Shown in pieces: positions 8,978 through 40,541 of a stretch of DNA of 64,000 nucleotides. Made by a program: the position numbers and the translations under genes. Below the pieces are notes generated by a model, which saw only the letters and a list, made by a program, of their open reading frames with translations, did no database searches and was not told where the DNA came from. How positions within the stretch are numbered: position 1 is the first letter of the stretch; each line of letters begins with the position of its first letter. The stretch comes from Psychrobacter sp. ANT_WB68 (lineage in GTDB: Bacteria; Pseudomonadota; Gammaproteobacteria; Pseudomonadales; Moraxellaceae), in NCBI RefSeq assembly GCF_008369115.1, contig NZ_VOAZ01000005.1, positions 62,001 to 126,000 of the forward strand. The letters are read 5' to 3'.

Positions 8978-10503
8978 TGAACACAGCAACTACTACTGAT
9001 CATGCCGCTCACCAAGAAATCGTCCGCAAAGAGCTGTTCGTCGATGGCTATGAAGTGGTCATCGGGATTGAGATTCACTGCCAGCTAAATACCGAAAGTA
9101 AAATATTCTCAAGCGCACCAACTGACTTCGGTCATGAGCCAAATACCCAAGCCAGTATCGTTGACTTAGGTCTACCAGGCGTATTGCCTGTGTTAAACAG
9201 CGGCGTGGTCGATCGTGCCTTAAAATTCGGTATCGGCGTCAATGCTGAGCTAGGGTTATTTAATACGTTTGACCGAAAAAACTACTTCTATCCTGATTTG
9301 CCAAAAGGCTATCAAATCACCCAAATGGCCAACCCTATCGTTGGCAAGGGTTATATCGATGTCGTGGTCAATGAAGGCGAGAAAAACGAATACCCTAAAC
9401 GCATGGGTATCACTCGCGCACATCTAGAAGAAGATGCCGGTAAATCAGTGCATGATGCCGTCGACGGTATGACCGGCGTCGATCTTAACCGCGCTGGTAC
9501 GCCATTAATCGAAATCGTCTCTGAGCCTGATATGCGTTCAGCTTATGAAGCCCTTGCTTATATCAAAGCCATTCATCAACTGGTCACTTGGCTCGGTATC
9601 TCAGATGCCATCATGGCAGAAGGCTCATTCCGCTGCGACTGTAACGTCTCTGTGCGCAAGCCAGGTGCAGAATTGGGCACACGTACTGAGCTTAAAAACC
9701 TCAACTCGTTCCGCTTTATCGAGCGTGCCATCAATCGTGAAATCGAGCGTCAAATCGATATCATCGAAGATGGTGGTAAAGTTATCCAAGCAACGATGCT
9801 TTATGATCCAGAGCGCGATGAAACTCGCACCATGCGTACCAAAGAAGATGCCAACGATTATCGCTATTTCCCTGACCCCGACTTGCTACCTGTGCGTATC
9901 GAGCAGCATACCGTTGATAGCATTCGGGCGGCAATGCCTGAGCTGCCTGTTGCCCGTCGTGCACGTTTTGAAGAGGCGCTTGGTCTCTCAGAATATGACG
10001 CTCGTATCCTAACAGGTAGCCGCCCGCTAGCCGATTACTTTGAAGCCGTTGTCGCTGAAGTTGGGCAACAAGATGCAAAAATGGCGGCTAACTGGGTCAT
10101 GGGCGATCTGCTAGGGGCGTTGAATAAAGATGATAAAGACATCATCGACTCTCCTATCAGCGCCAAGCAATTGGCTGGCATGTTGGCACGTATTAAAGAC
10201 GATACCCTATCTGGCAAATTGGCTAAGAAAGTATTTAGCGCCTTATATGAGCGCGAAGGCGGCGATGCTGATGACGCAGCAGATAAAATCATCGAAGAAA
10301 AAGGTCTTAAACAAGAAACTGATACGGGCGCGATTAAAGCCATCGTTGAAGACGTCATTGCGAAAAACCAAGTGATGGTTGAAGAGTATCGCGGCGGTAA
10401 AGAAAAAGCTTTTAACGGTCTGGTTGGTCAAGTGATGAAAGCCAGTCGCGGTAGTGCCAACCCGCAGCAAGTGAACCAAATCTTAAAAGAGCTGTTGAGT
10501 TAA
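8977..10503 (+). CDS. gatB: Asp-tRNA(Asn)/Glu-tRNA(Gln) amidotransferase subunit B
   Basis: GatB, about 508 residues, activates the mischarged tRNA by phosphorylation and transfers ammonia to it. The start [20 protein letters not shown] is preceded by AAGGAG at 8963-8968; an in-frame start 96 bp upstream lies inside gatA and is unlikely. [20 protein letters not shown], the [10 protein letters not shown] segment and the C-terminal YqeY-like tail ([20 protein letters not shown]) identify it. With gatC and gatA it supplies Gln-tRNA and/or Asn-tRNA by the indirect route. Confidence 0.98.
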
Positions 10504-10617
10504 GGTTAACTGCTCGTTGGTTATGCTGGCTATTATAGGTAAAATGCGATTGTAGATTTTGGCTAAAACAAATAGCTCTTGCAATATACATAATTTTGCG
10601 TAAAATAGTCAGTCATT

Positions 10618-10694
10618 CGGGGCGTAGCGCAGTCTGGTAGCGCACTACACTGGGGGTGTAGGGGTCGCAGGTTCAAATCCTGCCGTTCCGACCA
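10618..10694 (+). tRNA. tRNA-Pro (anticodon GGG)
   Basis: A 77-nt cloverleaf. The acceptor CGGGGCG pairs with CGTTCCG (two G-U pairs). The anticodon stem CTACA/TGTAG encloses loop CTGGGGG, giving anticodon GGG (proline, CCC). The T arm GCAGGTTCAAATCCTGC and an encoded CCA are present. It is the integration site of the mobile element: its 3' end is repeated at 21093-21113 while the tRNA itself remains intact on the left side. Confidence 0.97.
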
Positions 10695-10698
10695 AACA
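10678..10698 (+). repeat. attL: left 21-bp direct repeat in the tRNA-Pro 3' end
   Basis: The last 17 bases of tRNA-Pro (from TCCTGCCG) plus four bases (AACA) recur exactly at 21093-21113, in the same orientation. The bases just outside differ on both sides. An integrase gene starts 160 bp inside. This is the classic layout of site-specific integration that regenerates the tRNA 3' end. Confidence 0.93.
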
Positions 10699-10705
10699 CA
10701 ATATT

Positions 10706-10741
10706 AGGGCATACCGTCATTGACCGTATGCCCTTTATTTT
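10706..10741 (+). terminator. Intrinsic terminator just inside attL
   Basis: A 9-bp stem, AGGGCATAC with GTATGCCCT (10706-10714 and 10726-10734), is followed by TTATTTT. It probably ends the tRNA-Pro transcript now that the native terminator lies beyond attR, and it shields the element from read-through. Confidence 0.75.
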
Positions 10742-10794
10742 GGGCATTTTTCAGGTTTTCACCACCTTATAGGTGTATGGCGTTCCATATAGAA

Positions 10795-10815
10795 TGTTGG
10801 TATTATTGTTGGTAT
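10795..10815 (+). repeat. Left copy of a 21-bp integrase arm-type repeat
   Basis: A sequence containing two TTGGTATT units spaced 12 bp recurs exactly at 21013-21033, just inside attR, in the same orientation. A further inverted TACCAAC/CCAACA cluster lies at 10831-10852, overlapping the integrase promoter region. Tyrosine integrases bind such arm sites, and overlap with the int promoter would allow autoregulation. Confidence 0.75.
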
Positions 10816-10857
10816 TGAGCAGCACCAACATGGACAATACCAACAAAGGATAGACCC

Positions 10858-12099
10858 ATGCCCCTAACCCATACAGGTATCAACAAGCTACAGCCTAGCC
10901 CCACCTCTATTGACACAAAACGACCTGATAAACACAGTGATGGTAACGGGCTGCAATTATGGGTGCGTTATACAGGCGTTAAGTCATGGATCAGTGCCTA
11001 CAGGTGGCAAGGCAAACAGCAAACCCTCACTATTGGCACTTATCCAGTAATGAGCCTCCAAAATGCACGCCAGCGCAATATTGAGATTAAACGCTTGATA
11101 GCTGATGGTGTGAACCCTAAAGACGATAAGAAAAAGACACAAGCAGACAATGATGGATCAAGGGCGTTCGATACGATAGCCCAGCGTTGGCATGATGACC
11201 GCAAGGCACATATTGCTGCTACTACCTATAGCCGTGATTACTCACAGTACCAACGCGATATTAAGCCCGTCATTGGTCACATGAATATAGAAGACATAAC
11301 CGCGCCTGATATTTTGGCTATCGGTAAAGCTATCGAAGCGAGGGGCGCGAGTGACATGGCAAGGCGTGCAATGCGTCAAACAGGGCAAATCTTTAAACAA
11401 GCCATACGTGAGGGCTTAACAAACATCAACCCAGCCAACGACCTAACCGAAGCTTTAAAACCGCATAAGGTGAAGCACCATAGCCGTATCACCAGCCAGC
11501 AATTACCAAAGCTACTACAAGACATTGATGCCTATGAGGGTGATCTACTGGTGAAGCTAGGCTTATGGTTTATGTGCTATACGTTTGTAAGAACGCAAGA
11601 ATTACGCTTTATGGAATGGAGCGAGATAGACTATAAAGCCAAGATATGGCGCATACCAGCCGACAAAATGAAAATGGATAGACCGCACTTAGTACCGCTT
11701 GCCCCTCAAACAATGGCAATCTTAGAACAGATCAAGGCGCTAGGGTTTTCGGATCAATACGTTTTCTTTAATACCTCAACCCGTAAGCCATACAGTACAA
11801 ACGCTTTTATCACTGCCCTATGGCGCATGGGTTATAAGGGCAGAATGACGGGGCACGGTTTCCGTGGACTTGCCAGCACTACCCTACACGAACAGGAATA
11901 CATGCACGAAGCGATAGAGCTACAGCTGGCACATGAGAAAGAAAACAAAATCAGTAAAGCCTATAACGGGGCGCAGCATTTACCCTACAGAACTAAGATG
12001 ATGAATGAGTGGGCAAACTTCATTGATGATGCTTACGCTGGCAAGATAGATAACTTGATCCGTGCAGACTTCAAACAACAAGCACAAAAGCATGGCTAA
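10858..12099 (+). CDS. Tyrosine recombinase integrase (DUF4102/P4 type)
   Basis: Site-specific recombinase of 413 residues. The N-terminal DUF4102-like arm-binding domain (about 5-90) shows SDGNGLQLWVRYTG and TLTIGTYPVMSLQNAR. A core-binding SAM-like domain (about 100-200) and the catalytic domain follow. Catalytic residues are visible: Arg245 in TFVRTQELRF, His333 and Arg336 in TGHGFRG, His359 in LAHEKEN and the Tyr nucleophile at 369 in SKAYNGA. It adjoins attL, as expected for tRNA-targeting P4-type integrases, and the protein appears intact and functional. Confidence 0.96.
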   Translation: MPLTHTGINKLQPSPTSIDTKRPDKHSDGNGLQLWVRYTGVKSWISAYRWQGKQQTLTIGTYPVMSLQNARQRNIEIKRLIADGVNPKDDKKKTQADNDGSRAFDTIAQRWHDDRKAHIAATTYSRDYSQYQRDIKPVIGHMNIEDITAPDILAIGKAIEARGASDMARRAMRQTGQIFKQAIREGLTNINPANDLTEALKPHKVKHHSRITSQQLPKLLQDIDAYEGDLLVKLGLWFMCYTFVRTQELRFMEWSEIDYKAKIWRIPADKMKMDRPHLVPLAPQTMAILEQIKALGFSDQYVFFNTSTRKPYSTNAFITALWRMGYKGRMTGHGFRGLASTTLHEQEYMHEAIELQLAHEKENKISKAYNGAQHLPYRTKMMNEWANFIDDAYAGKIDNLIRADFKQQAQKHG

Positions 12100-12145
12100 T
12101 ATCATGCTGTAATGACCATACAAGGCTAGGACTAATTACCCGAAA

Positions 12146-12174
12146 GCCAGCCGTTCACACACCTTTAGGCTGGC
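12146..12174 (+). promoter_or_regulatory. Leader hairpin presenting an anti-SD loop
   Basis: GCCAGCC (12146-12152) pairs perfectly with GGCTGGC (12168-12174). The 15-nt loop ends in CACACCTTTA (12158-12167), the exact complement of the two tandem TAAAGGTGTG copies at 12198-12217, which include the ribosome-binding site of the next gene. There is no T-tract, so it is not a plain terminator. A related hairpin precedes the AlpA-type gene. Confidence 0.6.
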
Positions 12175-12197
12175 ACTGCCTTGCACCTACTTTGATT

Positions 12198-12217
12198 TAA
12201 AGGTGTGTAAAGGTGTG
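12198..12217 (+). repeat. Perfect tandem 10-bp repeat overlapping a ribosome-binding site
   Basis: TAAAGGTGTG occurs twice in direct succession, and the second copy places AAGGTG four bases before the ATG at 12222. It may be a protein operator, an RNA pairing target for the upstream hairpin loop, or both. Confidence 0.75.
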
Positions 12218-12221
12218 AATT

Positions 12222-13064
12222 ATGCAAGATAGTCCATCATTTACAGAACTTCATAACATCATAGAATATGCCGAAAGTAATGTTGATACCATTTTAAAGA
12301 TAGATGAAAGGTTAAGTTTCTATTTAAGGGCGCTTGAAGTTAGTACTAAAATCAATATGCTTGGAATGCACCAAATATCTACGGGCTATCCAAATGAGAT
12401 AAAAAACTTATTAGCAAAGGCGGTACAGGTAGAAGCAGCGATATTTTATACCTGTATAGCGTGTGATTATGGGTTCACATATTCTCAACCACGAGTAATA
12501 GATTTTCATGAGGCAAGGTTGTTTGTCACAAGGTTTTTTATAGAGAACTACAAAACAATGGATAGGTTTTCACTATGCGAACAATTATATTTTACCAATC
12601 AAGATAAGAATTTTTTAGCCGTGTTAGCTGAAAATAAAAATACTGTTTTTCACCCTGTTATTATATTCAAAGCTTTATATACCTCAATATTAGCCCAGCT
12701 TTATGCTTTAGCTGATAGGGAAGATGACGCTCTTAGCAGTTTAATGAATGCATCATTCTTCTATGGTGCAGAAATACAATCCAGTATGCCAATAACAGAA
12801 CAGCAGGCACAAAACCTAATTGATTTTGATATTAGTAAAAGAACCCAAAAAGCTAATGAAGCAAGATGGCAGGGTCATGTAGAGCGCCTAAGACGTAAAT
12901 ACTTAGAATTAGACGAAAGTCGTCAAGGTAGTGCAGATAAAAAACCAACTATCAAAGCAGTAGCGCAATGGATATATGAGCATCATAATGAACAAGAATT
13001 AGAGCTTGAAACTATTAGAGATCATCTTAGCAAAGCCCGTAGGGGAATTTTTACTAACGATTAA
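12222..13064 (+). CDS. Hypothetical protein of the mobile element
   Basis: I do not recognise this 280-residue protein. It has no signal peptide or membrane segment and looks mostly alpha-helical. The C-terminal third is basic and charged (SKRTQKANEARWQGHVERLR), then KPTIKAVAQWIYEHHNEQE, which could form a helix-turn-helix-like DNA-binding unit. It stands alone between the integrase and the regulator cluster, with a leader carrying tandem repeats over its ribosome-binding site. By position it could be a regulator or an immunity/exclusion factor; this is inference only. Confidence 0.75.
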   Translation: MQDSPSFTELHNIIEYAESNVDTILKIDERLSFYLRALEVSTKINMLGMHQISTGYPNEIKNLLAKAVQVEAAIFYTCIACDYGFTYSQPRVIDFHEARLFVTRFFIENYKTMDRFSLCEQLYFTNQDKNFLAVLAENKNTVFHPVIIFKALYTSILAQLYALADREDDALSSLMNASFFYGAEIQSSMPITEQQAQNLIDFDISKRTQKANEARWQGHVERLRRKYLELDESRQGSADKKPTIKAVAQWIYEHHNEQELELETIRDHLSKARRGIFTND

Positions 13065-13101
13065 TAAATAGTATCTGCAATGCAAACACTACTATTTACA
13101 T

Positions 13102-13147
13102 CGTAAGCAATACTAGTTGCAGCGTAAGCAATGACGGTTACGCTGCA
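13102..13147 (+). promoter_or_regulatory. Putative operator upstream of the AlpA-type gene
   Basis: CGTAAGCAAT occurs at 13102-13111 and again at 13123-13132, exactly 21 bp apart (two helical turns). The second copy overlaps a perfect 10-bp inverted repeat, TGCAGCGTAA with TTACGCTGCA (13118-13127 and 13138-13147). This combination suggests a binding site for a dimeric regulator, possibly AlpA, KilA-N or the upstream unknown protein. Confidence 0.55.
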
Positions 13148-13192
13148 TAACTATTCTACACTCTACTACCACCCCATAAGATAGCCCATGTA

Positions 13193-13215
13193 AGCCGTAG
13201 AACACCTTTACGGCT
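13193..13215 (+). promoter_or_regulatory. Second leader hairpin with an ACACCTTTA loop
   Basis: AGCCGTA (13193-13199) pairs with TACGGCT (13209-13215) around a 9-nt loop. The run ACACCTTTA (13202-13210) is shared exactly with the hairpin at 12146-12174, and the flanks (AAGCC before, GGCT after) also match. It lies 25 bp before the AlpA-type start codon. Confidence 0.55.
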
Positions 13216-13239
13216 CAACAAACTACATGGAGCTAGAAC

Positions 13240-13530
13240 ATGGCACACCCAACCCAAAACACCCCAGTAATTCCTTTTACTGATGATACCTCGCACGATA
13301 CCGAACCAACCACCGAAAACTATCAAGCTATGCAAATGCCTACTACTGGTATGGGCAGGGCTAAAGATATTCTGCCGTTCCTACCTTTTAGTAAAACCAC
13401 CCTTTTTGAATGGTCAAAAGATGGACGTTTCCCAGCTGGCAAAAAGCTAAGCCCTACTATGACCGCATGGAATTATTCAGACATTCACGAATGGCTTAAT
13501 TCTCACACCTCAACCACTAGCGAGGTGTAA
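13240..13530 (+). CDS. AlpA-type excisionase/transcriptional regulator
   Basis: A 96-residue protein with a disordered N-terminal 35 residues and then a MerR-like winged helix-turn-helix: AKDILPFLPFSKTTLFEWSK followed by GRFPAGKKLSPTMTAWNYSDIHEWL. AlpA proteins of P4-like elements activate or control integrase/excision or late satellite genes. It opens a tight run of genes (3-bp spacing to the next). Two candidate regulatory structures lie in its 175-bp upstream region. Confidence 0.88.
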   Translation: MAHPTQNTPVIPFTDDTSHDTEPTTENYQAMQMPTTGMGRAKDILPFLPFSKTTLFEWSKDGRFPAGKKLSPTMTAWNYSDIHEWLNSHTSTTSEV

Positions 13531-13533
13531 CCC

Positions 13534-13776
13534 ATGAACACACGGCAAACAAAGCAAAAATACAAACAAATCATTCTTAATCACATGCTGGCAGGCAAAA
13601 GCCTATCCACTTATGAAGCGTACGACCTCTATAACATAACGTGCTTTTTACAGCGTATCAGTGAGCTAAGAGATCAAGGCGTAACTATTCAAGATGAATG
13701 GGTAAAGAATAACGACAAACGCTTTAAACGCTACTGGATAGATCAACCAATACCGCAAACCGTAGAGGGGGTGTAA
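13534..13776 (+). CDS. Small helix-turn-helix-like protein
   Basis: Basic 80-residue protein: KQIILNHMLAGKSLSTYEAY, then LYNITCFLQRISELRDQGV and a short beta-like tail with FKRYWIDQP. The pattern resembles small winged-helix proteins of phages and satellites, in which a helix-turn-helix is followed by a hairpin. It sits between the AlpA-type and KilA-N genes with 3-bp and 2-bp gaps, so it is almost certainly co-transcribed. The role is presumably regulatory; no closer assignment can be made by eye. Confidence 0.75.
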   Translation: MNTRQTKQKYKQIILNHMLAGKSLSTYEAYDLYNITCFLQRISELRDQGVTIQDEWVKNNDKRFKRYWIDQPIPQTVEGV

Positions 13777-13778
13777 TC

Positions 13779-14306
13779 ATGCTTACTATCTCAAACAGCA
13801 CCATAAATATGAAAGACGGGCTTTATTCACTCAATGACCTACATAAAGTAAGTGGTAGAAGCCAAAAACATAAGCCAGCAAACTTCATGCGATTAGAAAA
13901 CACAAAAGCCTTGATTGACGAAATAGAGCGTTGCTCAGATATGAGCAACGGAACAAATTCAACAGCTTACAAGGTTATTCAAGGTGGTGACTCAGAACAG
14001 CAAGGCACATTTGTATGCCGTGAGCTTGTCTATAGTTATGCAATGTGGATTAGCCCACGTTTTCAACTACTCGTTATACGTGCCTTTGACTCAATAGCTA
14101 ATCAGCAAAAGCAACTTAGCCAGCGACTCAACGATTTATGCCATGACTTAAAGGTGGTTGATGATGGACTCACTAGCGCAGGGCGTTTCCTTTGCGTTGG
14201 TGGTAAGCAGATCAAGCCACAAATACAGAAAGATATTGATAGTACCCTAAAGCAGATGCAGCCAAGTCTTTTCAACGTGGAGGAGATAAGAAATGAGCAA
14301 AGATAA
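13779..14306 (+). CDS. KilA-N domain protein
   Basis: A 175-residue protein with an N-terminal KilA-N DNA-binding domain (about 10-110): MKDGLYSLNDLHKVSGRSQK, NFMRLENTKALIDEI, then the signature FVCRELVYSYAMWISPRFQL and VIRAFDSI. KilA-N proteins in phages and satellites act as antirepressors or DNA-binding regulators. The C-terminal 65 residues look helical. Its 3' end overlaps the next start by 14 bp. Confidence 0.9.
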   Translation: MLTISNSTINMKDGLYSLNDLHKVSGRSQKHKPANFMRLENTKALIDEIERCSDMSNGTNSTAYKVIQGGDSEQQGTFVCRELVYSYAMWISPRFQLLVIRAFDSIANQQKQLSQRLNDLCHDLKVVDDGLTSAGRFLCVGGKQIKPQIQKDIDSTLKQMQPSLFNVEEIRNEQR

Positions 14307-14829
14307 CAGAACCAATCTAACAGCCAACCACGGGGCATACGGTCGCAAACAGACAGGCAAACGTGGCTTACTACTTAGCTTTATTATATTCATGTCATGG
14401 GTAGCAGGTATCGGCTTGCTACTCTCACTAATCGCTTGCCAGTCAGTCAACGCAAAATTAATTGCAACCGATGATAGCAGCGGTTACTATATAGACCTCT
14501 CAAAAAAACACGCAAGCGGACAGCCAATCCGTAAACTTTTGGCTTTTTTTGTGCCTGTCATTGGTATGGACTCTCAATCCTCAATCAAACAGACAGACAC
14601 TGCCTCACAAGCGCACCTGAGCGCGACAAGGGGGCAAACCATCATATCTATAGCAAATCACTTGCTAACCGACTATGACGGGTTGACGCTGCAAAATAAA
14701 ATAGCCTTTGGGCGAATATGCAGGGCGGTTGCTTGCGTGACCGAGAGTAAGACCCGTCACCCTATACTTTTACCGTATAGCGTGACACATACTCAAAAAA
14801 CAACGCAAGGAGGGCATTATCATGCCTAA
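14293..14829 (+). CDS. Hypothetical protein with one or two hydrophobic segments
   Basis: A 178-residue protein I do not recognise. A strongly hydrophobic stretch (about 24-50, LLLSFIIFMSWVAGIGLLLS then LIACQS) looks like a membrane anchor, and a weaker one lies near 80-90. It overlaps the KilA-N gene by 14 bp and the next gene by 8 bp, with GGAGGAG before its ATG. A terminator-like hairpin followed by seven T lies inside it (14522-14550), so expression past that point may be limited. Confidence 0.65.
   Translation: MSKDNRTNLTANHGAYGRKQTGKRGLLLSFIIFMSWVAGIGLLLSLIACQSVNAKLIATDDSSGYYIDLSKKHASGQPIRKLLAFFVPVIGMDSQSSIKQTDTASQAHLSATRGQTIISIANHLLTDYDGLTLQNKIAFGRICRAVACVTESKTRHPILLPYSVTHTQKTTQGGHYHA
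14522..14550 (+). terminator. Terminator-like hairpin inside a coding region
   Basis: AGCCAA (14522-14527) pairs with TTGGCT (14539-14544) and runs straight into seven T (14544-14550). An A-rich run lies about 15 bp upstream. Its place inside an open frame, upstream of the replication gene, would allow attenuation. It may instead be chance in codons for FF. Confidence 0.35.
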
Positions 14830-15193
14830 TTCAATCCGTAAAACCTCAAACAACCAAACCACTACTAACAGCCCCCAAGCGATTGACGCGCAATCACGCC
14901 AGCGCAAAGTAATTGACGTTACATTTGCAGACGATGACGAAGTAATTTTAATGCCGTCTATCATGCTGTCCGATATTGCATGTGACCTGACAGGCGCTAT
15001 CACTGTATTAAATGATATTGGCGCACTCCTACACCTTATCTACAAGCAAGAAATAACACCCAGCCAAGCTATGTCTATGGCGCGTCTATCACATGATGCA
15101 GCCGATACATGGGCTAATCTGCTATGCAGTCAATTAAATATCATCAATGAACCACTAGCCATGACAGGTTACGGCAAGGAGGGCAGCCAATGA
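14822..15193 (+). CDS. Hypothetical protein of the mobile element
   Basis: A 123-residue acidic-to-neutral protein that I do not recognise. A polar N-terminal tail (1-30) is followed by VIDVTFADDDEVILMPSIML and a helical region (about 50-105) ending LLCSQLNIINEPLAM. An AAGGAGGG box lies a few bases before the ATG. It overlaps the previous gene by 8 bp and the following basic peptide by 4 bp (ATGA), so it belongs to the same operon as the DUF3987 protein. Confidence 0.7.
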   Translation: MPNSIRKTSNNQTTTNSPQAIDAQSRQRKVIDVTFADDDEVILMPSIMLSDIACDLTGAITVLNDIGALLHLIYKQEITPSQAMSMARLSHDAADTWANLLCSQLNIINEPLAMTGYGKEGSQ

Positions 15194-15303
15194 AACGCTA
15201 CCCACCAAAGCAAAGCCGTAAGCATGCCAAGCGCAAAAGCTACTATAAAAAATATAGAGCCACGCGCCAGCCGAACCAGTCGCAAGCAAGGGGGAACAGA
15301 TGA
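15190..15303 (+). CDS. Highly basic 37-residue peptide
   Basis: A short frame, MKRYPPKQSRKHAKRKSYYK and onwards, has 14 Lys/Arg and no acidic residues. Its start overlaps the upstream stop (ATGA, 15190-15193) and its stop overlaps the DUF3987 start (ATGA, 15300-15303). This double coupling argues that it is translated. It may bind nucleic acid or serve mainly to couple translation to the replication gene; no family was recognised. Confidence 0.6.
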   Translation: MKRYPPKQSRKHAKRKSYYKKYRATRQPNQSQARGNR

Positions 15304-17417
15304 CTACCACACAACAAACAGACAGCCATCAAAAAGCCCATGCATTTAGCACAGGCTTTGAAATGGTAAATCGATTTAATGCAGCCACACGGCAAGGGCT
15401 GGCAGATGACAATACGCTACTAAACTTCTACAACCTATGTGAGCAGTTAGGCATACAAGATAAGCTATTGCTCATTGATGATAATATTACCATAACCACA
15501 GGCTTTGATACAGGAACGATAGCGCCCACAGCTGGCACGATAGGGCTAGTATTAAGCAGCAATCAAGATCAACCCGTTACCATTGGCAGCATAACGCCTA
15601 ATGGCAGTCAAAAACCGTTAATCATTGACCGTATGCAGCCGTCTGCCTTAATCATTGGGACGTTAGATAGCACCCGTGAGCTGATAGCCGTTGATAACTT
15701 AGACGATGCAGTAATGCTTGCTCAATGCTTAATAAATGACAATGTTACGGTATTAACAAGCCTTGATAGTCTGTTATTTAATGGCATGGTAAAGCATTTT
15801 GCCGAAGCCTACCCCGTAACTATTTTTACCACCATAGATAAAAAAGATAAGGCATGTAAGCCGCTGGCAGGTTGCAATGTCAAAGCGGTTATTACTGTTT
15901 TTGATGTGCTGCTACAGTTAGATAACCATTCTACCTATGCCGACATACTAGCGGACAGTGATACAACCATACTCGATCTACAGGCTGAAATATGGGGCGA
16001 ACCTGAACCATTAGCCAATAATCCAAACAAGCCCACGCCCTACCCTATAGATGCGTTCACAGGCTTACTACAGCACGTTGTTAAAGCAGTGGCACACTAC
16101 ACGCAAGCACCGACTGCAATCGCAGGACAATGCGTTTTAGGGGCATTGGCACACATGGGGCAGCGGTTTATTGATGCGCCAATGGGGCACGGTTATATGC
16201 CAACCAGTCTAATATTAATCACAGAGGGCGAAAGTGGTAGCGGCAAGTCACAAGCAATGGGCTTAACTCACTTCAAAATACGTGAGTATGAAAAGCAGCT
16301 ATATGCTGATTATCTTATTGAGCTGTCATCATGGGAAAATGACAGGGTAAGCCTAAAAGGTAAGGAGTTAGCCGACTTCTTAGAGTCCAACCCAAAGCCC
16401 CAAAACCCTAAGACCATGTTTAAAGAAGCAACCATTGAGCCGATACTCGATAAGTTTATTGATGGCAGTATTAGTAACGCTTCATGGACAACAGACGAAG
16501 CCGCCCAATTCTTTAATGGTCACACCATGAAAGGTGATACCGCAGGCAATGCCCTATCATCATTGACGACCCTTTATAGTGATGGTGAGGTGTCCCGTTT
16601 ACGCTCGCAAAAGTCTGCCTATGCTACACCACATACAGACGCTTACAACGTGCGTATGACGCTATTACTACAAGGACAGCGCGTTATCTTAGAGCCAGCA
16701 CTAGCCGACCCCGTGATGAATGGACAAGGCTTTTTAGCCCGTGCCTTGATTGCTTGTCCCGAAGACTTGCGAGGTCAAAGAGTATGGAACGATGAACAGC
16801 GCAATAACGAAAGCCCTTATGATAATCCGCACTTAATAGAATACTGGTCACGCTGCCAGAGCTTACTTGATCCATTGCCAGCCAATCTACCCAATGACAG
16901 CACAGGCGCACCACAGCGCATTAAAATGCAATGGGCAGACAAGCAGACTAGGCAAGTCTTTAGCGACTTCAAACAGGCAATAGAAGACAGACAGGCACAG
17001 GGGCAGCCGTTAGAGTATCTAAAAGCGTATGCCTCACGCATGGCAGAAAATGCGAGCCGTATTGCGTCATTAATGGCGTTCTTTGATGGGCGCAAGGCAA
17101 TCACTACTGATGATATTAAACGGGCTTTTATGTTGGTTGAGTATTCAACAGCCGAACGCTTACGCTACCTTGATGCAACGCCAACAGGTGAGCAGAACGA
17201 CAGTGAGAAGTTAAGCAGCTGGCTAGTGGATAAAGCGAGGGGTAAAAATCCACCTATCTTGAATAAGTCGTTTGTATCGCAAAATGCACCTAATGCGATT
17301 AGAGGTAAGAAACTTAATAGCTTACTTGATGACTTAGAAAGCATGGGGCACGTTCGGTTAGAAAATGAGGGGCGCAGGCGTTTAGTGTGTATTAATCCAA
17401 AGCTAATTAATGAATAG
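15300..17417 (+). CDS. DUF3987 P-loop replication protein (primase/helicase-like)
   Basis: A 705-residue protein. The N-terminal 230 residues may be a degenerate Toprim-like domain (uncertain). A DUF3987 ATPase region follows, with TPYPIDAFTGLLQHVVKAVA and a Walker A GESGSGKS at 310-317. Further conserved segments are WTTDEAAQFF, LYSDGEVSRLRSQKSAY and LLLQGQRVILEPALAD. The C-terminus (about 620-705) looks like a winged helix. DUF3987 proteins are common in satellites, IMEs and prophage remnants and are thought to unwind or prime at the element's own origin. It is the last gene of the operon, and a terminator follows at 17669. Confidence 0.9.
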   Translation: MTTTQQTDSHQKAHAFSTGFEMVNRFNAATRQGLADDNTLLNFYNLCEQLGIQDKLLLIDDNITITTGFDTGTIAPTAGTIGLVLSSNQDQPVTIGSITPNGSQKPLIIDRMQPSALIIGTLDSTRELIAVDNLDDAVMLAQCLINDNVTVLTSLDSLLFNGMVKHFAEAYPVTIFTTIDKKDKACKPLAGCNVKAVITVFDVLLQLDNHSTYADILADSDTTILDLQAEIWGEPEPLANNPNKPTPYPIDAFTGLLQHVVKAVAHYTQAPTAIAGQCVLGALAHMGQRFIDAPMGHGYMPTSLILITEGESGSGKSQAMGLTHFKIREYEKQLYADYLIELSSWENDRVSLKGKELADFLESNPKPQNPKTMFKEATIEPILDKFIDGSISNASWTTDEAAQFFNGHTMKGDTAGNALSSLTTLYSDGEVSRLRSQKSAYATPHTDAYNVRMTLLLQGQRVILEPALADPVMNGQGFLARALIACPEDLRGQRVWNDEQRNNESPYDNPHLIEYWSRCQSLLDPLPANLPNDSTGAPQRIKMQWADKQTRQVFSDFKQAIEDRQAQGQPLEYLKAYASRMAENASRIASLMAFFDGRKAITTDDIKRAFMLVEYSTAERLRYLDATPTGEQNDSEKLSSWLVDKARGKNPPILNKSFVSQNAPNAIRGKKLNSLLDDLESMGHVRLENEGRRRLVCINPKLINE

Positions 17418-17668
17418 CTAACCTTAGCTACCCTTAAAAAGCTGCTAAACTTGCTAAACTTCATATAGCCCTTGCCAGTCAAGGGCTTAGCTTTAGGTAA
17501 GCCACTGCTAAGCATTGCTATACTTGCTAAACACGGCTAACATTTAGCGGAACTATAGCAACTTTAGCAGGACGTTAGCAGCTGCTAACTAAGCTACAAG
17601 CTATAATTGGTAAGGCTTAGATGAAATTTAGCAAGTTTAGCGACTTTTTGTATGTATAAAACTATATT
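17418..17668. repeat. GCTAA/TTAGC iteron-like cluster
   Basis: At least a dozen copies of GCTAA or its reverse TTAGC occur between the DUF3987 stop and its terminator, many spaced 9-11 bp. Examples are GCTAAACTT twice in tandem at 17444-17461, GCTAAGCATTGCTATACTTG near 17507-17526 and TTTAGCAAGTTTAGCGAC near 17627-17644. No gene is present. Short phased repeats next to a replication protein gene suggest an origin or a replication-control site. Confidence 0.65.
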
Positions 17669-17695
17669 GGCAGGCGTTTATCGCCTGCCTTTTTT
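17669..17695 (+). terminator. Intrinsic terminator after the DUF3987 operon
   Basis: GGCAGGCG (17669-17676) pairs with CGCCTGCC (17682-17689) around a 5-nt loop and is followed by six T. The T-tract continues into a 20-bp sequence that recurs at 18227-18246 on the other side of the next gene. Confidence 0.9.
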
Positions 17696-17710
17696 ATAGT
17701 GTAAAGAAAC
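17691..17710 (+). repeat. Left copy of a 20-bp direct repeat flanking the lipoprotein gene
   Basis: The sequence TTTTTATAGTGTAAAGAAAC is identical at 18227-18246. The hairpin-forming DNA immediately before each copy is also related (GGCAGGCGTTTAT versus GGTAGGCATTTAT), so the duplicated unit is about 45 bp. Confidence 0.85.
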
Positions 17711-17766
17711 TGAACTATAATCGTGTTAATCTATAGCTTATTGAATAAATATTAACAGGCAGACAA

Positions 17767-18168
17767 ATGAAAAAATTAGCTTTTATATTCTTAATATCAC
17801 TCACAGCTTGCCGACCCTTTGATGATATAGACAGTGATACTGATGATTATATAGGAGTTAGTGAGGTGCATTGGTCATCATATGGCAATGTTAAGCCATA
17901 CCCATTTACTACTAGCTATGGCAATATTGCTTGCAGTTTGAACGAAGTATCGTTCTATCCTGACGATACTGCAAATGATGAGTTAACAATAGGCTTTCCA
18001 TTAAATAAGTTAGCTCAGATCAGACAAAAAACCAGCGGTGTGACAGCAAACGTGAAAAATACTATCAAGCGTGATGCCGATTTGTCCGAGGCTATTAGAA
18101 TGGGGCTAGATAGGTGTAAACAAACAGAGGAACGATTAGAGAAGTTCAAAGCGCAAAATAGTAAATAG
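17767..18168 (+). CDS. DUF2511-like putative lipoprotein
   Basis: A 133-residue protein with a short lipoprotein signal MKKLAFIFLISLTAC, so Cys15 would be lipidated. The mature part has VSEVHWSSYGNVKPYPFTTS, GNIACSLNEVSFYPDD and FPLNKLAQ, resembling the small secreted DUF2511/YebY group. It stands alone with its own upstream space, between two copies of a terminator-linked 20-bp repeat, like a cargo cassette. Envelope lipoproteins on mobile elements can exclude phages or related elements, but nothing here proves that role. Confidence 0.7.
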   Translation: MKKLAFIFLISLTACRPFDDIDSDTDDYIGVSEVHWSSYGNVKPYPFTTSYGNIACSLNEVSFYPDDTANDELTIGFPLNKLAQIRQKTSGVTANVKNTIKRDADLSEAIRMGLDRCKQTEERLEKFKAQNSK

Positions 18169-18200
18169 TAAAAACTAACTAATGATTTAGATATAAAAAA

Positions 18201-18231
18201 GGTAGGCATTTATGCAGTACCAGCCCTTTTT
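18201..18231 (+). terminator. Terminator-like repeat after the lipoprotein gene
   Basis: A degenerate version of the 17669 terminator, GGTAGGCATTTATGCAGTACC followed closely by CCCTTTTT. The stem is weaker than in the left copy. It is the second half of the duplicated 45-bp unit around the lipoprotein gene. Confidence 0.45.
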
Positions 18232-18246
18232 ATAGTGTAAAGAAAC
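18227..18246 (+). repeat. Right copy of the 20-bp direct repeat
   Basis: Identical to 17691-17710 and in the same orientation. Together the two copies bracket the DUF2511-like gene. Confidence 0.85.
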
Positions 18247-18600
18247 CCTAAGGTTTCCCTAAGGTTATGGATCAACAGACATCGCCGCGCATGTTGTGAA
18301 ATGTTGTTATTGGCAGCACTCACTACCCCAAGATAACCACAAGGTTAGAACCTTATAAAACCTTACATTCAGCAAGCCGCCGACTTGTTAAAACCTGTTA
18401 TTCAAACGCGATTTAATCAATGCCAGAACCTGAGAAAACCTGAACCCAAAACATGACAAAACATGACATTTTGCACCGCCGCCAACCTGTCAAAACCCGT
18501 CATTTTAAGCCGATACGCTTAACGCAAGAACCTTACAAAACCATACATTCAAAACCAAATTACACACCACGCAATGTTAACAAATGCTAACATTTTGCAC
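18247..18600. repeat. Array of paired 10-bp repeats phased at about 11 bp
   Basis: Eight units each consist of two near-identical 10-bp halves, roughly AACCTGNCAA then AACCTGNCAT, often followed by TT. They start near 18291, 18349, 18382, 18427, 18450, 18484, 18529 and 18573. From 18349 on, the starts are 33, 45, 23, 34, 45 and 44 bp apart, close to multiples of 11. Examples are AACATGACAAAACATGACAT (18450-18469) and AACCTGTCAAAACCCGTCAT (18484-18503). A CCCTAAGGTTTCCCTAAGG pair with 11-bp spacing precedes them. No gene is present. Confidence 0.75.
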
Positions 18601-18700
18601 GCTCAACAGCGCATGACTGCCATTATCACAAAGCCATATAGCATAAGGGCTTAGATAGTTTCTTAACAAGTATCGCACGCGCACGCGAGGCAGGCAGCAA

Positions 18701-18990
18701 TTAAAGGGGTTCTCATACCGTATAAAAAGGTTTTCGGAGTCCATAAAGGGGCTAATTTTTCGGACTGTTTTAAAAGGACTTGGATAGGTTTTTGGACATC
18801 TTAGAGGGGACTTTTTATAGTCCATAAAAAGAGCGACTTTTGCAAATAGTACGCACAAGCGCAAGTGAGGTTTCCCCTAGTTTTGCTAGTCCATAAAAAG
18901 GGGTAATTTTCGGACATCGTAAGAGGGGTTAAAAGTGAATTGTTGGACACGTTAGAGCGAGTTTATGGAACAGTACGCGCACGGGGCATA
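18701..18990. repeat. GTCCATAAA / GGACATC repeat cluster
   Basis: Three copies of AGTCCATAAA with a following purine-rich run (near 18738, 18819 and 18888) alternate with three copies of GGACA-C-TTAGAG or GGACATCGTAAGAGGGG (near 18794, 18912 and 18945). Several adjacent pairs are inverted relative to each other, such as CTTTTTAT and ATAAAAAG around 18811-18831. No plausible gene overlaps. This is a third repeat family of the same non-coding region, probably part of an origin or partition site. Confidence 0.65.
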
Positions 18991-19151
18991 TTTTGCCAAT
19001 GATTTATAGTTTCGCGACAAGTATCGTAGTAACTATTTATAGCTACCTAACCGCCTTAGTGGAATGTTCTATAATAATGACGATGGAAGCAGGCATTGAT
19101 TCACATTGCATATTATTTTCATTTATTGCTGTCTGTGTAAATTTAAAAAGC

Positions 19152-19177
19152 CGTAAAATACAGTTAAGTATTTTACG
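19152..19177. repeat. Perfect 10-bp inverted repeat
   Basis: CGTAAAATAC (19152-19161) and GTATTTTACG (19168-19177) are separated by six bases. The site lies downstream of the minus-strand YHYH gene and could act as its transcript-end hairpin, although no T-tract follows. Confidence 0.5.
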
Positions 19178-19236
19178 ACTAGAAAAGCGTTTCATTCAAT
19201 TTCGTGTCATTAAATCGAAATCATATAGATTAATAT

Positions 19237-19362
19237 TTAATGACAGTGATAAGTTCCTCTCTTAGTATCGTTATGGCAACCTGCTGAGTTAGTACCACCA
19301 CCATGAGCGAATGCAGTAGAAACAAATGTCATTGTGACAAGTACAAGCATTAACTTTTTCAT
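19237..19362 (-). CDS. YHYH-type small secreted protein
   Basis: A 41-residue protein: signal peptide MKKLMLVLVTMTFVSTAFA, then a mature part of only about 22 residues, HGGGTNSAGCHNDTKRGTYH, followed by Cys-His. This matches the short YHYH-motif family (HGGxTNxxGCHxxxKxGxYHCH), whose members are exported and rich in Cys and His, probably for metal or disulfide chemistry. It is divergent from, and unrelated to, the operon genes and looks like a cargo gene. An 11-bp inverted repeat (19205-19215 with 19235-19245) overlaps its stop. Confidence 0.8.
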   Translation of the reverse strand: MKKLMLVLVTMTFVSTAFAHGGGTNSAGCHNDTKRGTYHCH

Positions 19363-19628
19363 AAATTAATTCCACTATAGTTGATTGTTAAAACTTAATT
19401 ATACAAGCAAAAGTTTATTAGTTATATTTTGTAAAATATTCTAATAACAGAAAATAACTGCATTTTATCAATCAAAGTTATTGTCATAATATAAAAATTT
19501 GTTCAATGATTATATAAAAATCAACTATGCCTACTGCCGCCAATACTCATAGCCTTAGCGACTAACTACAGTTAGGCATTACACCCTACCGTAAGCAGCT
19601 ACAAGGTAAAGAAGCCTACAGCGTAGCA

Positions 19629-19832
19629 ATGAGCTATCAATACAAGGGCAATACATACCGCTATAACATCAAACTGCTAAAGACGCGCTGCAATTATGGC
19701 GGCTATCGGTACTGGTGGGCGTGTCCATCATGTAGTAAGCGCATAGGCATGCTGTATTGTTCTGGGCTTTACGTGTGTAGGCATCTCGAAAAGAATGGGC
19801 GCAAGCAAAGTTTTTACGTCAAGACTGGATAA
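19629..19832 (+). pseudogene. Truncated zinc-ribbon protein fragment
   Basis: The frame encodes 67 residues: MSYQYKGNTYRYNIKLLKTR then CNYGGYRYWWACPSCSKR and MLYCSGLYVCRH. This resembles the middle of a larger zinc-ribbon family found in mobile DNA, with the pattern CxxGGxRxWFxCPxCxRR then LYxxxxFxCRHC. The last Cys of CRHC is lost, the tail is unrelated and the N-terminal part is missing. An open frame extends about 75 bp upstream of the ATG without a start, supporting decay. A real short protein cannot be excluded. Confidence 0.5.
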
Positions 19833-19911
19833 AGAATGGTTTATCCAAGTTTTTTTATGATATTTGACCCAGTCATAACACTTTTATTTTGAAACGACTA
19901 TACAAGACATT

Positions 19912-20571
19912 TCAGAACTCTTTAGAAATTAAGTATGCTGTGAAGATAGTTAAAATACTGATATATATTACTTCTAAAAATAAAAAATTTCCTAAACTAT
20001 TACTTATGAAGTTTTGCCAAAATTCTTTTAGAGGTAAATCCCTAAATAGTAAGAATGGAATCGCTAGATAGACAAAAAACAACAATAATCCCATCGGTCT
20101 TCTTAAACTTTGAAGTTCCATTGAAGAAACACTAAACTCTCCTGTTTGAGCCCATTTTTTGCCATCTCGTATTTTATTTTTGGTATGATTATTTAGACCT
20201 TTAAAGACGGTAAAAGAAGATAATGCTATAATCGTAAATATTATAAAAAATGTGAAACTATCATTAATTACGTAATTTGTCTTAGAAAGATTATTGTTCT
20301 TTGATAAAAATGTAATTTTTGTATTTAAGTTAAATATGTTAAAAGCAAAATAATAGAAAATGACAAATAAAAAATTTCCCCACCAGTAAAAGTATGGTAA
20401 GGGTGAGAAATCATTTAAAACTTGGAAAAAAAAATAATCTGAGTTGGGATGTGTTTGTGAGTTTTTTTTATTATAAAGTTGTCCAAAAATTCTATTCATA
20501 ATAAACCACACAAAGTAGAAGCTAAACTCATTATTTAAAATAATATCACGAAAATATAAAAAAGCAAACAA
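19912..20571 (-). CDS. AT-rich hypothetical membrane protein (cargo)
   Basis: A 219-residue protein dominated by Phe, Ile, Leu and Asn with about four or five hydrophobic segments (near 8-25, 60-80, 108-125, 160-180 and 195-215). Its base composition is far more AT-rich than the rest of the window, pointing to a separate foreign origin. No domain was recognised. A hydrophilic loop near 125-155 carries RDGKKWAQTGEF. By location, near the right end of the element beside an IS remnant, it is probably cargo; membrane effectors of anti-phage systems can look like this, but no partner gene is visible. Confidence 0.65.
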   Translation of the reverse strand: MFAFLYFRDIILNNEFSFYFVWFIMNRIFGQLYNKKNSQTHPNSDYFFFQVLNDFSPLPYFYWWGNFLFVIFYYFAFNIFNLNTKITFLSKNNNLSKTNYVINDSFTFFIIFTIIALSSFTVFKGLNNHTKNKIRDGKKWAQTGEFSVSSMELQSLRRPMGLLLFFVYLAIPFLLFRDLPLKEFWQNFISNSLGNFLFLEVIYISILTIFTAYLISKEF

Positions 20572-20666
20572 AAATCCGTTAAAAATATAATTTTTCTATA
20601 CTATAACCAAGCCCATTTAAAAGTGTTATAAACTAATTATCAAACCCAATTGTTATCATAAAGACC

Positions 20667-20747
20667 ATGACTTACTCACTAGATTTTCGCCGCGCTATTA
20701 TGGACTTCAATCAATTAGATTTAAAAAAGTCCTATCAACACGGCTAA
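20667..20747 (+). pseudogene. IS630-type transposase N-terminal remnant
   Basis: Only 26 codons, MTYSLDFRRAIMDFNQLDLK and onwards, then stop. MTYSxDFRxxxxxF is the usual beginning of IS630-family HTH transposase proteins; the helix-turn-helix and DDE parts are absent. It is probably what is left of an insertion near the right end of the element. Confidence 0.5.
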
Positions 20748-21012
20748 AAGCTATAGCCGTTATAAACTTTCGGATGTTTACTAGCTTAAATAATATTAAT
20801 TAGCTTGCGGTTTATAAGTTGAAATACATGATATTTGCGCGAATTGTATGCGATATTGCACGACCCCAAATAGCTATTTCAATCGCGCATATTAAGTTCT
20901 GATCAAATAACACTCTTATAATCATGTTGAACTGACAGACAGTGCAAACAATTACAAGATAATATTTAGTTGATGGGGTGAACATTGAATAACAGCAAAA
21001 TCAAAAAACGAT

Positions 21013-21033
21013 TGTTGGTATTATTGTTGGTAT
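21013..21033 (+). repeat. Right copy of the integrase arm-type repeat
   Basis: Exact 21-bp match to 10795-10815 in the same orientation, 60 bp inside attR. Matching arm sites at both ends suit an integrase/excisionase intasome. Confidence 0.75.
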
Positions 21034-21092
21034 CGTCAATATTTAATATTATAAAACCTATATAATACAATGCGTACAGACTCTACTTTACT

Positions 21093-21113
21093 TCCTGCCG
21101 TTCCGACCAAACA
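21093..21113 (+). repeat. attR: right 21-bp direct repeat of the tRNA-Pro 3' end
   Basis: Exact copy of 10678-10698. The upstream tRNA body is absent here, so this is the attachment scar marking the element's right border. Confidence 0.93.
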
Positions 21114-21130
21114 TAGTAGTAATACAGAAA

Positions 21131-21163
21131 AGCCAATCATTGTTTTCAATGGTTGGCTTTTTT
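21131..21163. terminator. Terminator beyond attR (original tRNA-Pro terminator)
   Basis: AGCCAATCATTG (21131-21142) pairs with CAATGGTTGGCT (21147-21158, one G-U), followed by TTTTTT. It lies 17 bp beyond attR and was probably the native tRNA-Pro terminator before insertion. On minus, an A-run gives a shorter T-tract (TTTTC), so it may also serve the convergent YdhR-like gene. Confidence 0.85.
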
Positions 21164-21188
21164 ATATTTAATTATTCTTCATTCAGTA

Positions 21189-21491
21189 TTACAAAGACGC
21201 TTTGGTAATCGCACTTAGTGCTTCATTAATGATAAATACTTTAGATTTAATGTCTTTGAAACCAAATGAAGTCAGTCTTTTGGTATGCTTCTCTAAATAT
21301 CTATTAGCATCCTCTAAATTGTCAAACACATAAATACCGCCCGCTTCTTGCGTCTCTTCGTTTTCTGTCCATAGTTTATAGACCAGACCATTTTCAGTGG
21401 CGATGTCTTCAGCAAGCTCTTTCATGGCGTCAAAGAACGCACTGCTAAAAGGTCCGCTATAAGGAAAGTCTATTTGCAAAAGATATTTCAT
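21189..21491 (-). CDS. YdhR-like putative monooxygenase
   Basis: A 100-residue protein of the YdhR dimeric alpha/beta ferredoxin-like family: MKYLLQIDFPYSGPFSSAFF, AEDIATENGLVYKLWTENEE and GGIYVFDNLEDANRYLEKH. The fold is shared with small monooxygenases and heme-degrading enzymes, but the substrate is unknown. It is divergent from the DUF1853 gene, immediately beyond the element's right border, so it belongs to the chromosome. Confidence 0.85.
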   Translation of the reverse strand: MKYLLQIDFPYSGPFSSAFFDAMKELAEDIATENGLVYKLWTENEETQEAGGIYVFDNLEDANRYLEKHTKRLTSFGFKDIKSKVFIINEALSAITKASL

Positions 21492-21632
21492 TTTTTAACC
21501 CTCATTGTTATTGAATAGTCGGCAAAATACATACTGCCAGATAATTACAATCTTAACATATTACGATTGCCTATAGACTTTCAGCCAGTGAAACGCTAGG
21601 GTAAATACTGTATGTTTACTTTGGTTTGACCT

Positions 21633-40464: not shown

Positions 40465-40541
40465 GCGCTCGTAGCTCAGTTGGATAGAGTATCGGTCTCC
40501 GAAGCCGAGGGTCGTGGGTTCGATTCCCGCCGAGCGCACCA
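40465..40541 (+). tRNA. tRNA-Arg (anticodon CCG)
   Basis: A 77-nt cloverleaf. Acceptor GCGCTCG pairs with CGAGCGC; the anticodon stem TCGGT/GCCGA encloses loop CTCCGAA with anticodon CCG (Arg, CGG). The T arm GTGGGTTCGATTCCCGC is present and CCA is encoded. No duplication of its 3' end was seen nearby, so this tRNA is not occupied by an element here. Confidence 0.97.

Follow-up and report, generated by a model that had tools for sequence, protein, structure and literature searches.

The 64,000-nucleotide stretch of DNA analysed here, called the window, comes from Psychrobacter sp. ANT_WB68 (contig NZ_VOAZ01000005.1, positions 62,001 to 126,000). Bases 10678-21113 of the window are an island inserted in the gene for tRNA-Pro(GGG), which confirms, base for base, a preliminary description made from the sequence alone. 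The features of the island are given below in window coordinates, with strand and the basis of each assignment (aa, amino acids; ORF, open reading frame; HTH, helix-turn-helix; tmRNA, transfer-messenger RNA; dN/dS, ratio of nonsynonymous to synonymous substitution rates).

10618-10694, + strand: tRNA-Pro(GGG), the integration site (ARAGORN; Rfam RF00005)
10678-10698, + strand: attL core, 21 bp, exact repeat of 21093-21113
10795-10815, + strand: left arm-type repeat, 21 bp, exact repeat of 21013-21033; kept in seven other tRNA-Pro elements and in L156
10858-12099, + strand: tyrosine integrase (int), 413 aa (Pfam PF13356, PF22022, PF00589; dN/dS)
12222-13064, + strand: ORF of 280 aa in a variable single-gene slot between int and alpA (homologue of 79% in L121)
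13240-13530, + strand: AlpA regulator, 96 aa (PF05930)
13534-13776, + strand: winged HTH protein (HTH_39), 80 aa (PF14090)
13779-14306, + strand: KilA-N protein, 175 aa (PF04383, phrog_129)
14293-14829, + strand: conserved ORF of 178 aa, no assigned function (cluster C4, 20 of 26 elements)
14822-15193, + strand: conserved ORF of 123 aa, no assigned function (cluster C5, 20 of 26 elements)
15190-15303, + strand: strongly basic conserved ORF, 37 aa (matched by tblastn in 20 of 25 other elements)
15300-17417, + strand: DUF3987 primase-helicase, 705 aa (PF13148, phrog_2373 helicase, AlphaFold, Foldseek)
17424-17649, no strand: iteron-like region, candidate replication origin (13 GCTAA/TTAGC words, inverted repeat I1)
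17767-18168, + strand: lipoprotein-like ORF of 133 aa (cluster C15, 3 of 26 elements; lipoprotein reading by eye)
18200-19050, no strand: conserved non-coding block (twin-decamer array at 18350-18545; GGAC/GTCC repeats at 18720-18960)
19629-19832, + strand: ORF of 67 aa, a short version of the C11 family (156-187 aa in relatives; clustering)
19912-20571, - strand: AT-rich, membrane-protein-like ORF of 219 aa, cargo (membrane reading by eye)
21013-21033, + strand: right arm-type repeat, 21 bp, exact repeat of the left arm
21093-21113, + strand: attR core, 21 bp, exact repeat; empty site in genomes G102 and G085

Attachment site and genes of the island

Both borders of the island are right because the exact 21-mer TCCTGCCGTTCCGACCAAACA, the att core, starts at 10678 and again at 21093. 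This core consists of the final 17 bases of the tRNA-Pro gene and 4 bases downstream, and the island, counted as unique DNA plus one att copy, is 10,415 bp long. The arm repeat, the exact 21-mer TGTTGGTATTATTGTTGGTAT, starts at 10795 and 21013. ARAGORN and these exact repeats thus bear out the tRNA-Pro(GGG) site, the 21-bp att repeats and the 21-bp inner repeats of the preliminary description. The arm pair recurs at this tRNA in seven other elements (L099, L100, L106, L112, L139, L144 and L151) and is also present in L156, where a second exact core was not found. No such pair was found in L098, L104 and L110, the integrases of which are more distant.

The preliminary description had proposed that an empty tRNA-Pro site be sought in related strains. 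A 421-bp gatB-tRNA query gave matches in 104 of 105 genomes of the genus, the island's own genome included, and the DNA behind tRNA-Pro was fetched from 40 relatives that were chosen by hand and do not form a random sample. Bases 10400-10698 were joined to bases 21114-21640, and the resulting sequence was aligned to the 40 tRNA-Pro loci. Two of these, in G102 (L108, 90%) and G085 (L105, 81%), are empty sites that align uninterrupted across the 21-bp core, and so have the same borders; the contrary outcome, empty sites with different borders, was not seen among the 40 loci. Within 2.5 kb behind tRNA-Pro, a near-full-length integrase of the same clade is present at 15 of the 40 loci, a fragment at three (one at a contig end) and none at 22, and a second exact 17-bp core occurs within the available DNA at 11. 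With att repeats, an integrase and empty sites in relatives, the island is an integrative element at a tRNA gene.

The integrase ORF is unbroken, carries Arm-DNA-bind_3, central and Phage_integrase domains (Pfam), and retains R245, H333, R336, H359 and Y369, which we take to be its catalytic set, as expected for the intact enzyme described earlier. Pfam likewise supports the reported gene set of AlpA, HTH, KilA-N and DUF3987 proteins. In agreement with the earlier statement that virion, packaging and transfer genes are lacking, Pfam or PHROGs scans of the 11 larger ORFs found no convincing match to virion, terminase, relaxase or conjugation families. The KilA-N part of the KilA-N protein weakly matches a 'lysis, amidase' PHROG (E 0.0017). 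The ORF in the slot between int and alpA has no convincing match in Pfam, PHROGs, PADLOC or NCBIfam and no relative in IMG/VR, and the 219-aa cargo ORF has no convincing family match. The cargo end of the island is AT-rich, a feature absent from the preliminary description.

For the DUF3987 protein, structure prediction weakly suggests an N-terminal DnaG/Toprim-like fold joined to an AAA+ part. The AlphaFold model has a mean pLDDT of 65.7 and is poor in the AAA+ part. Foldseek searches with this model returned nothing at E ≤ 0.001 (best E 1.6e-3); the weak matches include DnaG and MCM, with TM scores by target of 0.31-0.39 for the better DnaG matches. A sequence search against solved structures found none.

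Comparison with relatives gave low dN/dS values for int (0.05-0.06 against three tRNA-Pro elements and 0.12 against one tmRNA element), for DUF3987 (0.10-0.20, three comparisons) and for AlpA (0.14-0.19, three comparisons). KilA-N gave 0.14 and 0.34 and the slot ORF 0.26 (one comparison); the 178-aa ORF (0.52-0.56) and the lipoprotein-like ORF (0.31-0.50) had higher values. Judged by these ratios, int and the DUF3987 gene are under purifying selection, and the mobility and replication genes are maintained. Together with the same-border empty sites and the intact set of attL, attR and arm sites, this selection supports the proposal that the island is mobile and may still excise.

Several smaller sequences were noted in passing. 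An ORF of ~41 aa on the - strand (19237-19362) has a signal-peptide-like start and an HGGG...YHCH tail, and matches of 79-81% in other genomes may trace to it. A short frame at 20668-20745 presumably resembles the start of an IS630-type transposase, and DNA of L120 is 84% identical over 20680-20748. An Rfam candidate for sRNA-Xcc1 at 14677-14766 was dropped (score 39.4 against a gathering threshold of 53); it lies inside the 178-aa ORF.

A family of mosaic elements in Psychrobacter and other Moraxellaceae

Of the 105 genomes, 59 contain a match to the DUF3987 protein at E ≤ 0.001, a count that takes in proteins sharing just the N-terminal part. Long relatives (56-92%) were found at some two dozen loci, spread over 22 other genomes. 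Relatives at all 19 loci checked belong to Psychrobacter, in accord with the Moraxellaceae host named in the preliminary description. The genome that carries the island also holds a second DUF3987 element on contig C2.

ORFs were clustered for a hand-picked set of 26 elements, made up of 23 relatives with a found right border, this island and two plasmids. Members were chosen for the integrase and mostly also for the primase or the tRNA site, so that the presence of int in 26 of 26 and of a primase in 26 of 26 arises largely by selection. Loci at which no border was found were excluded, as was L122, in which DUF3987 is present and this integrase has no match. The common gene order is int, one ORF of variable family, AlpA, winged HTH, small ORFs or KilA-N, C4, C5, the 37-aa basic ORF and the primase-helicase, followed by a non-coding block and then cargo. 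AlpA is clustered in 24 of the 26 elements (L110 has a further tblastn match) and the winged HTH in 23, while C4 and C5 are each found in 20. There are two primase types that share ~230 N-terminal residues: by similarity, the DUF3987 type is carried by 17 elements and the other by nine, the latter being DUF927 in the one element tested, L144. Restriction systems occupy the cargo slot in some relatives (type I in L098, type IIG in L118). Type I in L110 and type IIG in L119 were also assigned, via shared clusters.

Integration sites of the family include tRNA-Pro and, at seven loci, tmRNA; other members adjoin tRNA-Gly, Phe, Arg or Leu genes. The nearest int among the loci examined (G033, 98%) is accompanied by another primase type, and the nearest primase (G082, 92%) by an int of 78% located at tmRNA. 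As read from these comparisons, the family is a mosaic, the modules of which reassort. A tRNA-Arg(CCG) gene lies at 40465-40541 of the window, and family elements adjoin such a tRNA in G061 and G042 (L133, L135); beside the gene in the window, inspection by eye found no integrase-like ORF of at least 120 aa, and the contig has no other integrase match.

Across the Moraxellaceae, a primase relative at E ≤ 1e-20 is present in 90 of 299 genomes, representing 6 of 16 genera, and 11 regions were fetched from 10 of the genomes beyond Psychrobacter. An integrase of the cluster lies upstream on the same strand in 10 of these regions, the eleventh being cut by the contig start, and a tmRNA or tRNA gene adjoins the integrase in six. 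No description of this Moraxellaceae family was found in the literature searched, which took in open papers and few subscription papers and did not extend to preprints.

Non-coding DNA behind the primase gene

Two non-coding features go beyond the preliminary description. The iteron-like region holds 13 GCTAA/TTAGC words within 280 nt after the primase gene, compared with a mean of 4.3 and a maximum of 9 in 200 Markov sequences. Between 11 and 17 such words are present in 8 of the 17 elements with a DUF3987-type primase, and more than two in none of the nine with the other type. The natural reading of this pattern is a primase-linked origin, against which count the nine DUF3987-type elements that have no iteron-like region.

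At E ≤ 1e-3, the second feature, the block, has matches in 14 of the 25 other elements, with 126 to 818 bases aligned, and none was found in the remaining 11. These matches take in elements of either primase type and of several integrase types, as well as the two plasmids of the 26-element set. The core motif of the block occurs at 21 places in 20 of the 105 genomes, of which 16 are within 5 kb of a primase match, four are near an integrase of this kind (G072, G039 and two in G048) and one is on G022:C50. At L254 (G048), one ORF pair and the block motif each occur twice, ~3.7 kb apart, beside an integrase, perhaps as the remnant of a duplicated element.

Within the block is an array of twin decamers with the unit AC-NNNN-[CTA]-AAAAC-NNNN-[CTA]-A[TC]. 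The right parts of the 26 elements hold 40 such units on the + strand, where ~1 is expected, and one on the - strand; the units are present in 14 of the 26 elements, and the left, coding parts hold two. The two four-letter words of a unit are equal or nearly so, as in the examples CTTA/CTTA and ATGA/ATGA at 18350-18545, and yet differ between units. Words within a unit agree at 3.58 of 4 positions, versus 2.07 for shuffled pairs (maximum 2.58 in 5000), and the 22 distinct word pairs give an agreement of 3.32 versus 2.04 (maximum 2.68); these statistics are not independent because the units share ancestry, and the pattern was spotted before it was tested.

An RNA gene is not favoured for the block because there is no excess folding (z -0.51, -1.22 and -0.37). 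A cos or pac site shared with phages was also considered and set aside. Of two motif scans of IMG/VR, one gave L225, a 10-kb record with a RepM initiator gene, and the other gave none; by similarity, the block was found in one of 11 virus records, again L225.

Phages, plasmids and the helper question

The integrase has relatives (71-95%, one over just 66 residues) at 11 IMG/VR loci, some of which are linked to phage genes. The 36.5-kb record L222/G113 has int (94%), AlpA (88%) and HTH (75%) with the same core and arms. Since tail, tape-measure and endolysin genes lie upstream and only the last 27 nt of the tRNA are present, this site is either the attP of a phage or a junction within a tandem array. 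In L226/G106 (also L215), an int of 81% at tmRNA is found with AlpA (53%), HTH (38%), an O-like replication gene and the large terminase TerL. In the record L223/G114, phage tail and lysis genes run directly into an att core and then an element with the other type of primase, an apparent phage-satellite tandem at tRNA-Pro. Finally, the 71-kb G111 combines int (71%), AlpA, a DUF3987 relative (66% over residues 205-704) and a TerL match, which is ~18 kb from int on its other side, such that one phage or two neighbours are both possible. Phages and these islands thus use a common left arm and attachment core. In the island's own genome, contig C1 carries an apparent prophage that includes terS, terL, portal, major head protein, tape-measure and endolysin genes.

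The same records could be taken to mean that the island is the remnant of a temperate phage, which kept its left arm (int, slot ORF, AlpA, HTH and primase), lost its late genes and is now stuck. L222/G113 and L226/G106 carry this left arm on phage contigs, and G111 holds int, AlpA and a DUF3987 relative as well as a TerL match. We nevertheless consider a stranded remnant quite improbable, as about two dozen elements share a layout that lacks late genes, int and DUF3987 show constraint, and the only one of the 11 virus records to carry the block is the 10-kb RepM record.

Related modules are also found in plasmids. The Psychrobacter plasmids pA52P5, pA37P2 and pA17P3 resemble the island in having an integrase, an HTH protein, a C5-type ORF, a primase and the non-coding block, and differ from it in being circular records with an extra RepM initiator and Q antiterminator. 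In pA52P5 and pA37P2, RepM, integrase, Q, HTH and C5 are joined by a DUF3987 protein 58% identical to that of the island, and the integrases are from another clade (27-30%). In pA17P3 and L225, RepM, integrase, Q and HTH are accompanied by a 924-aa protein in the place of the primase (95% alike in the two), and L225 has an HNH gene between the 924-aa gene and the block. RepM, integrase and Q antiterminator are present in all four of L225, L258, L036 and L037, a plasmid-like sister lineage whose members are possibly satellite-plasmid hybrids. Compared with 33 distinct tRNA/tmRNA sequences taken from the loci that were fetched, the att core of the RepM plasmids showed no convincing match. A genome search with the repM-int spacer of pA37P2 gave short matches, among which no tRNA site was recognised; several of them fall in other elements, either in the right end or upstream of the integrase.

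An oriT mimic requires no relaxase of its own. The island might accordingly be a mobilisable or plasmid-like element that an oriT mimic in the block allows to move by conjugation, or that persists as a RepM plasmid, and the circular plasmids that join RepM with integrase, HTH and primase and share the block speak for this possibility. It seems unlikely. The block matches just three of 72,556 plasmid records (pA52P5 and pA37P2 strongly, pA17P3 over 37 bases), all typed non-mobilizable by MOB-suite, a RepM-like gene was not found in the island, and the Q antiterminator of the three plasmids and L225 is of phage type and therefore points to phages.

The account that we favour, with moderate confidence, is that the island is an intact, minimal, helper-dependent integrative element of Psychrobacter, that is, a satellite-like island. 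From the sequence comparisons, it is probably functional and a real member of a widespread family of minimal satellite-like elements. Direct support covers the borders, the empty sites, the conserved mosaic layout, the purifying selection and the lack of a transfer family in the scanned ORFs; by analogy, we infer transfer by phage. P4-like satellites are defined by psu, sid and delta, and PICIs and cfPICIs by terS/ppi packaging or capsid genes. The preliminary description likened the island to both groups, and the arrangement of integrase, AlpA regulator and primase-helicase does hold. The defining genes do not: psu, sid and delta gave no Pfam or PHROG match, and terS/ppi or capsid genes were not found, in the 11 ORFs of the island.

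Closer precedents are satellites described as having no capsid genes, namely the phage-inducible chromosomal minimalist islands (PICMIs) of Vibrionaceae and the AH14b element. PICMIs are defined by a co-localised integrase, AlpA and DUF3987/DUF5906 primase, their authors call integration next to fis a hallmark, they are characterised by helper-induced excision and packaging as concatemers, and excision, replication and helper packaging are reported for PICMI115 (PMC10803314). That report gives 135 PICMI-like hits, 67 of them in Vibrionaceae, with complete ones only in Vibrio (PMC10803314). Compared with this published description, the island has PF00589, PF05930 and PF13148 co-localised within 10858-17417, one unassigned ORF between int and alpA, at least one ORF between alpA and the primase gene, non-coding stretches, cargo at the primase end, and no capsid-remodelling or terminase genes among the 11 ORFs scanned. 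It differs in its site (tRNA-Pro instead of fis), its size (10.4 kb versus an average of 6.7 kb), its Moraxellaceae host, a slot ORF that does not overlap int, and the possession of the iteron region and twin-decamer block. AH14b of Pseudomonas sp. ANT_H14, which its authors conclude is packed in helper capsids, is by description similar in its integrase, AlpA, Rha-type regulator, primase and helicase and in that no structural genes were found; it is larger (16.8 kb), has separate primase and helicase genes and has a named helper prophage (PMC4936722). Pseudomonas tmRNA islands, one of which was moved by a jumbo phage, share the tmRNA/tRNA site, IntY, AlpA, defence cargo and lack of transfer genes, as described, but are larger and have alpA at the far end, and a primase goes unmentioned in the text of that report (PMC12595487).

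Several observations weigh against helper dependence. The proposed test for co-occurrence with a helper prophage gave, if anything, the opposite result: 12 of 59 carriers have a TerL hit at E ≤ 1e-6, compared with 20 of the 46 genomes that do not carry the family (Fisher p=0.018), in a test that covers one TerL family, may miss other TerL types and is uncorrected for kinship. TerL matches at E ≤ 0.001 occur in 86 of the 105 genomes and are mostly weak; the 32 with E ≤ 1e-6 were counted and the rest dropped by hand. The layout makes a phage-parasitic life plausible by its likeness to the PICMI pattern, and yet neither a helper nor a cos or pac site was identified. Among 50,697 phage records none matches the right part of the island, the DUF3987 protein has none in the phage collection, and short peptide patterns for DUF3987 in IMG/VR gave one record (G111) with a 15-row alignment and none with the single sequence. 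Outside the genus, a match to the AlpA cluster was seen in only 4 of the 11 Moraxellaceae regions. The RepM plasmids carry related modules, and therefore some relatives may live as plasmids.

The negative association with TerL, together with the defence genes that some relatives carry in their cargo slot, would also suit a stable genomic island that rarely moves and is kept because its phage defence cargo benefits the host. This explanation is very doubtful in view of the patchy distribution, the empty sites, the exchange of modules across sites and the low dN/dS of the integrase.

If the island is a helper-dependent satellite, the conserved and empty sites suggest that its integrase would recombine the 21-bp core in the 3′ end of tRNA-Pro with the aid of arm sites at both ends. 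On entry or induction of a helper phage, AlpA and the small regulators may switch on int and the replication operon, as in AlpA satellites, and the excised circle could be copied by the DUF3987 primase-helicase from the iteron region behind it. Because no packaging or transfer gene was found, multimers would be packaged by the terminase and capsid of the helper, by analogy with PICMIs and AH14b. Cargo lies at the 3′ end and in relatives includes restriction systems.

A bolder proposal, which we hold to be rather unlikely, is that these elements form a Moraxellaceae-wide, so far undescribed family of minimal satellites that use a DNA signal in place of encoded packaging genes, with the block as a helper-facing packaging or replication signal and its twin decamers read by repetition instead of by fixed sequence. 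If true, the twin decamers would be a signal of a new kind, recognised by virtue of the repetition itself.

To our knowledge, experimental work on satellites that lack packaging genes covers few systems. With dozens of members at tRNA and tmRNA sites, a family in culturable Psychrobacter would permit tests of how such elements are packaged. The block offers a concrete candidate, open to testing, for the signal that is missing and is the part of the island most worth following. Moreover, modules are held in common with phages that have the same att core and with circular plasmids, and the family may therefore offer a natural system for the traffic among phages, satellites and plasmids.

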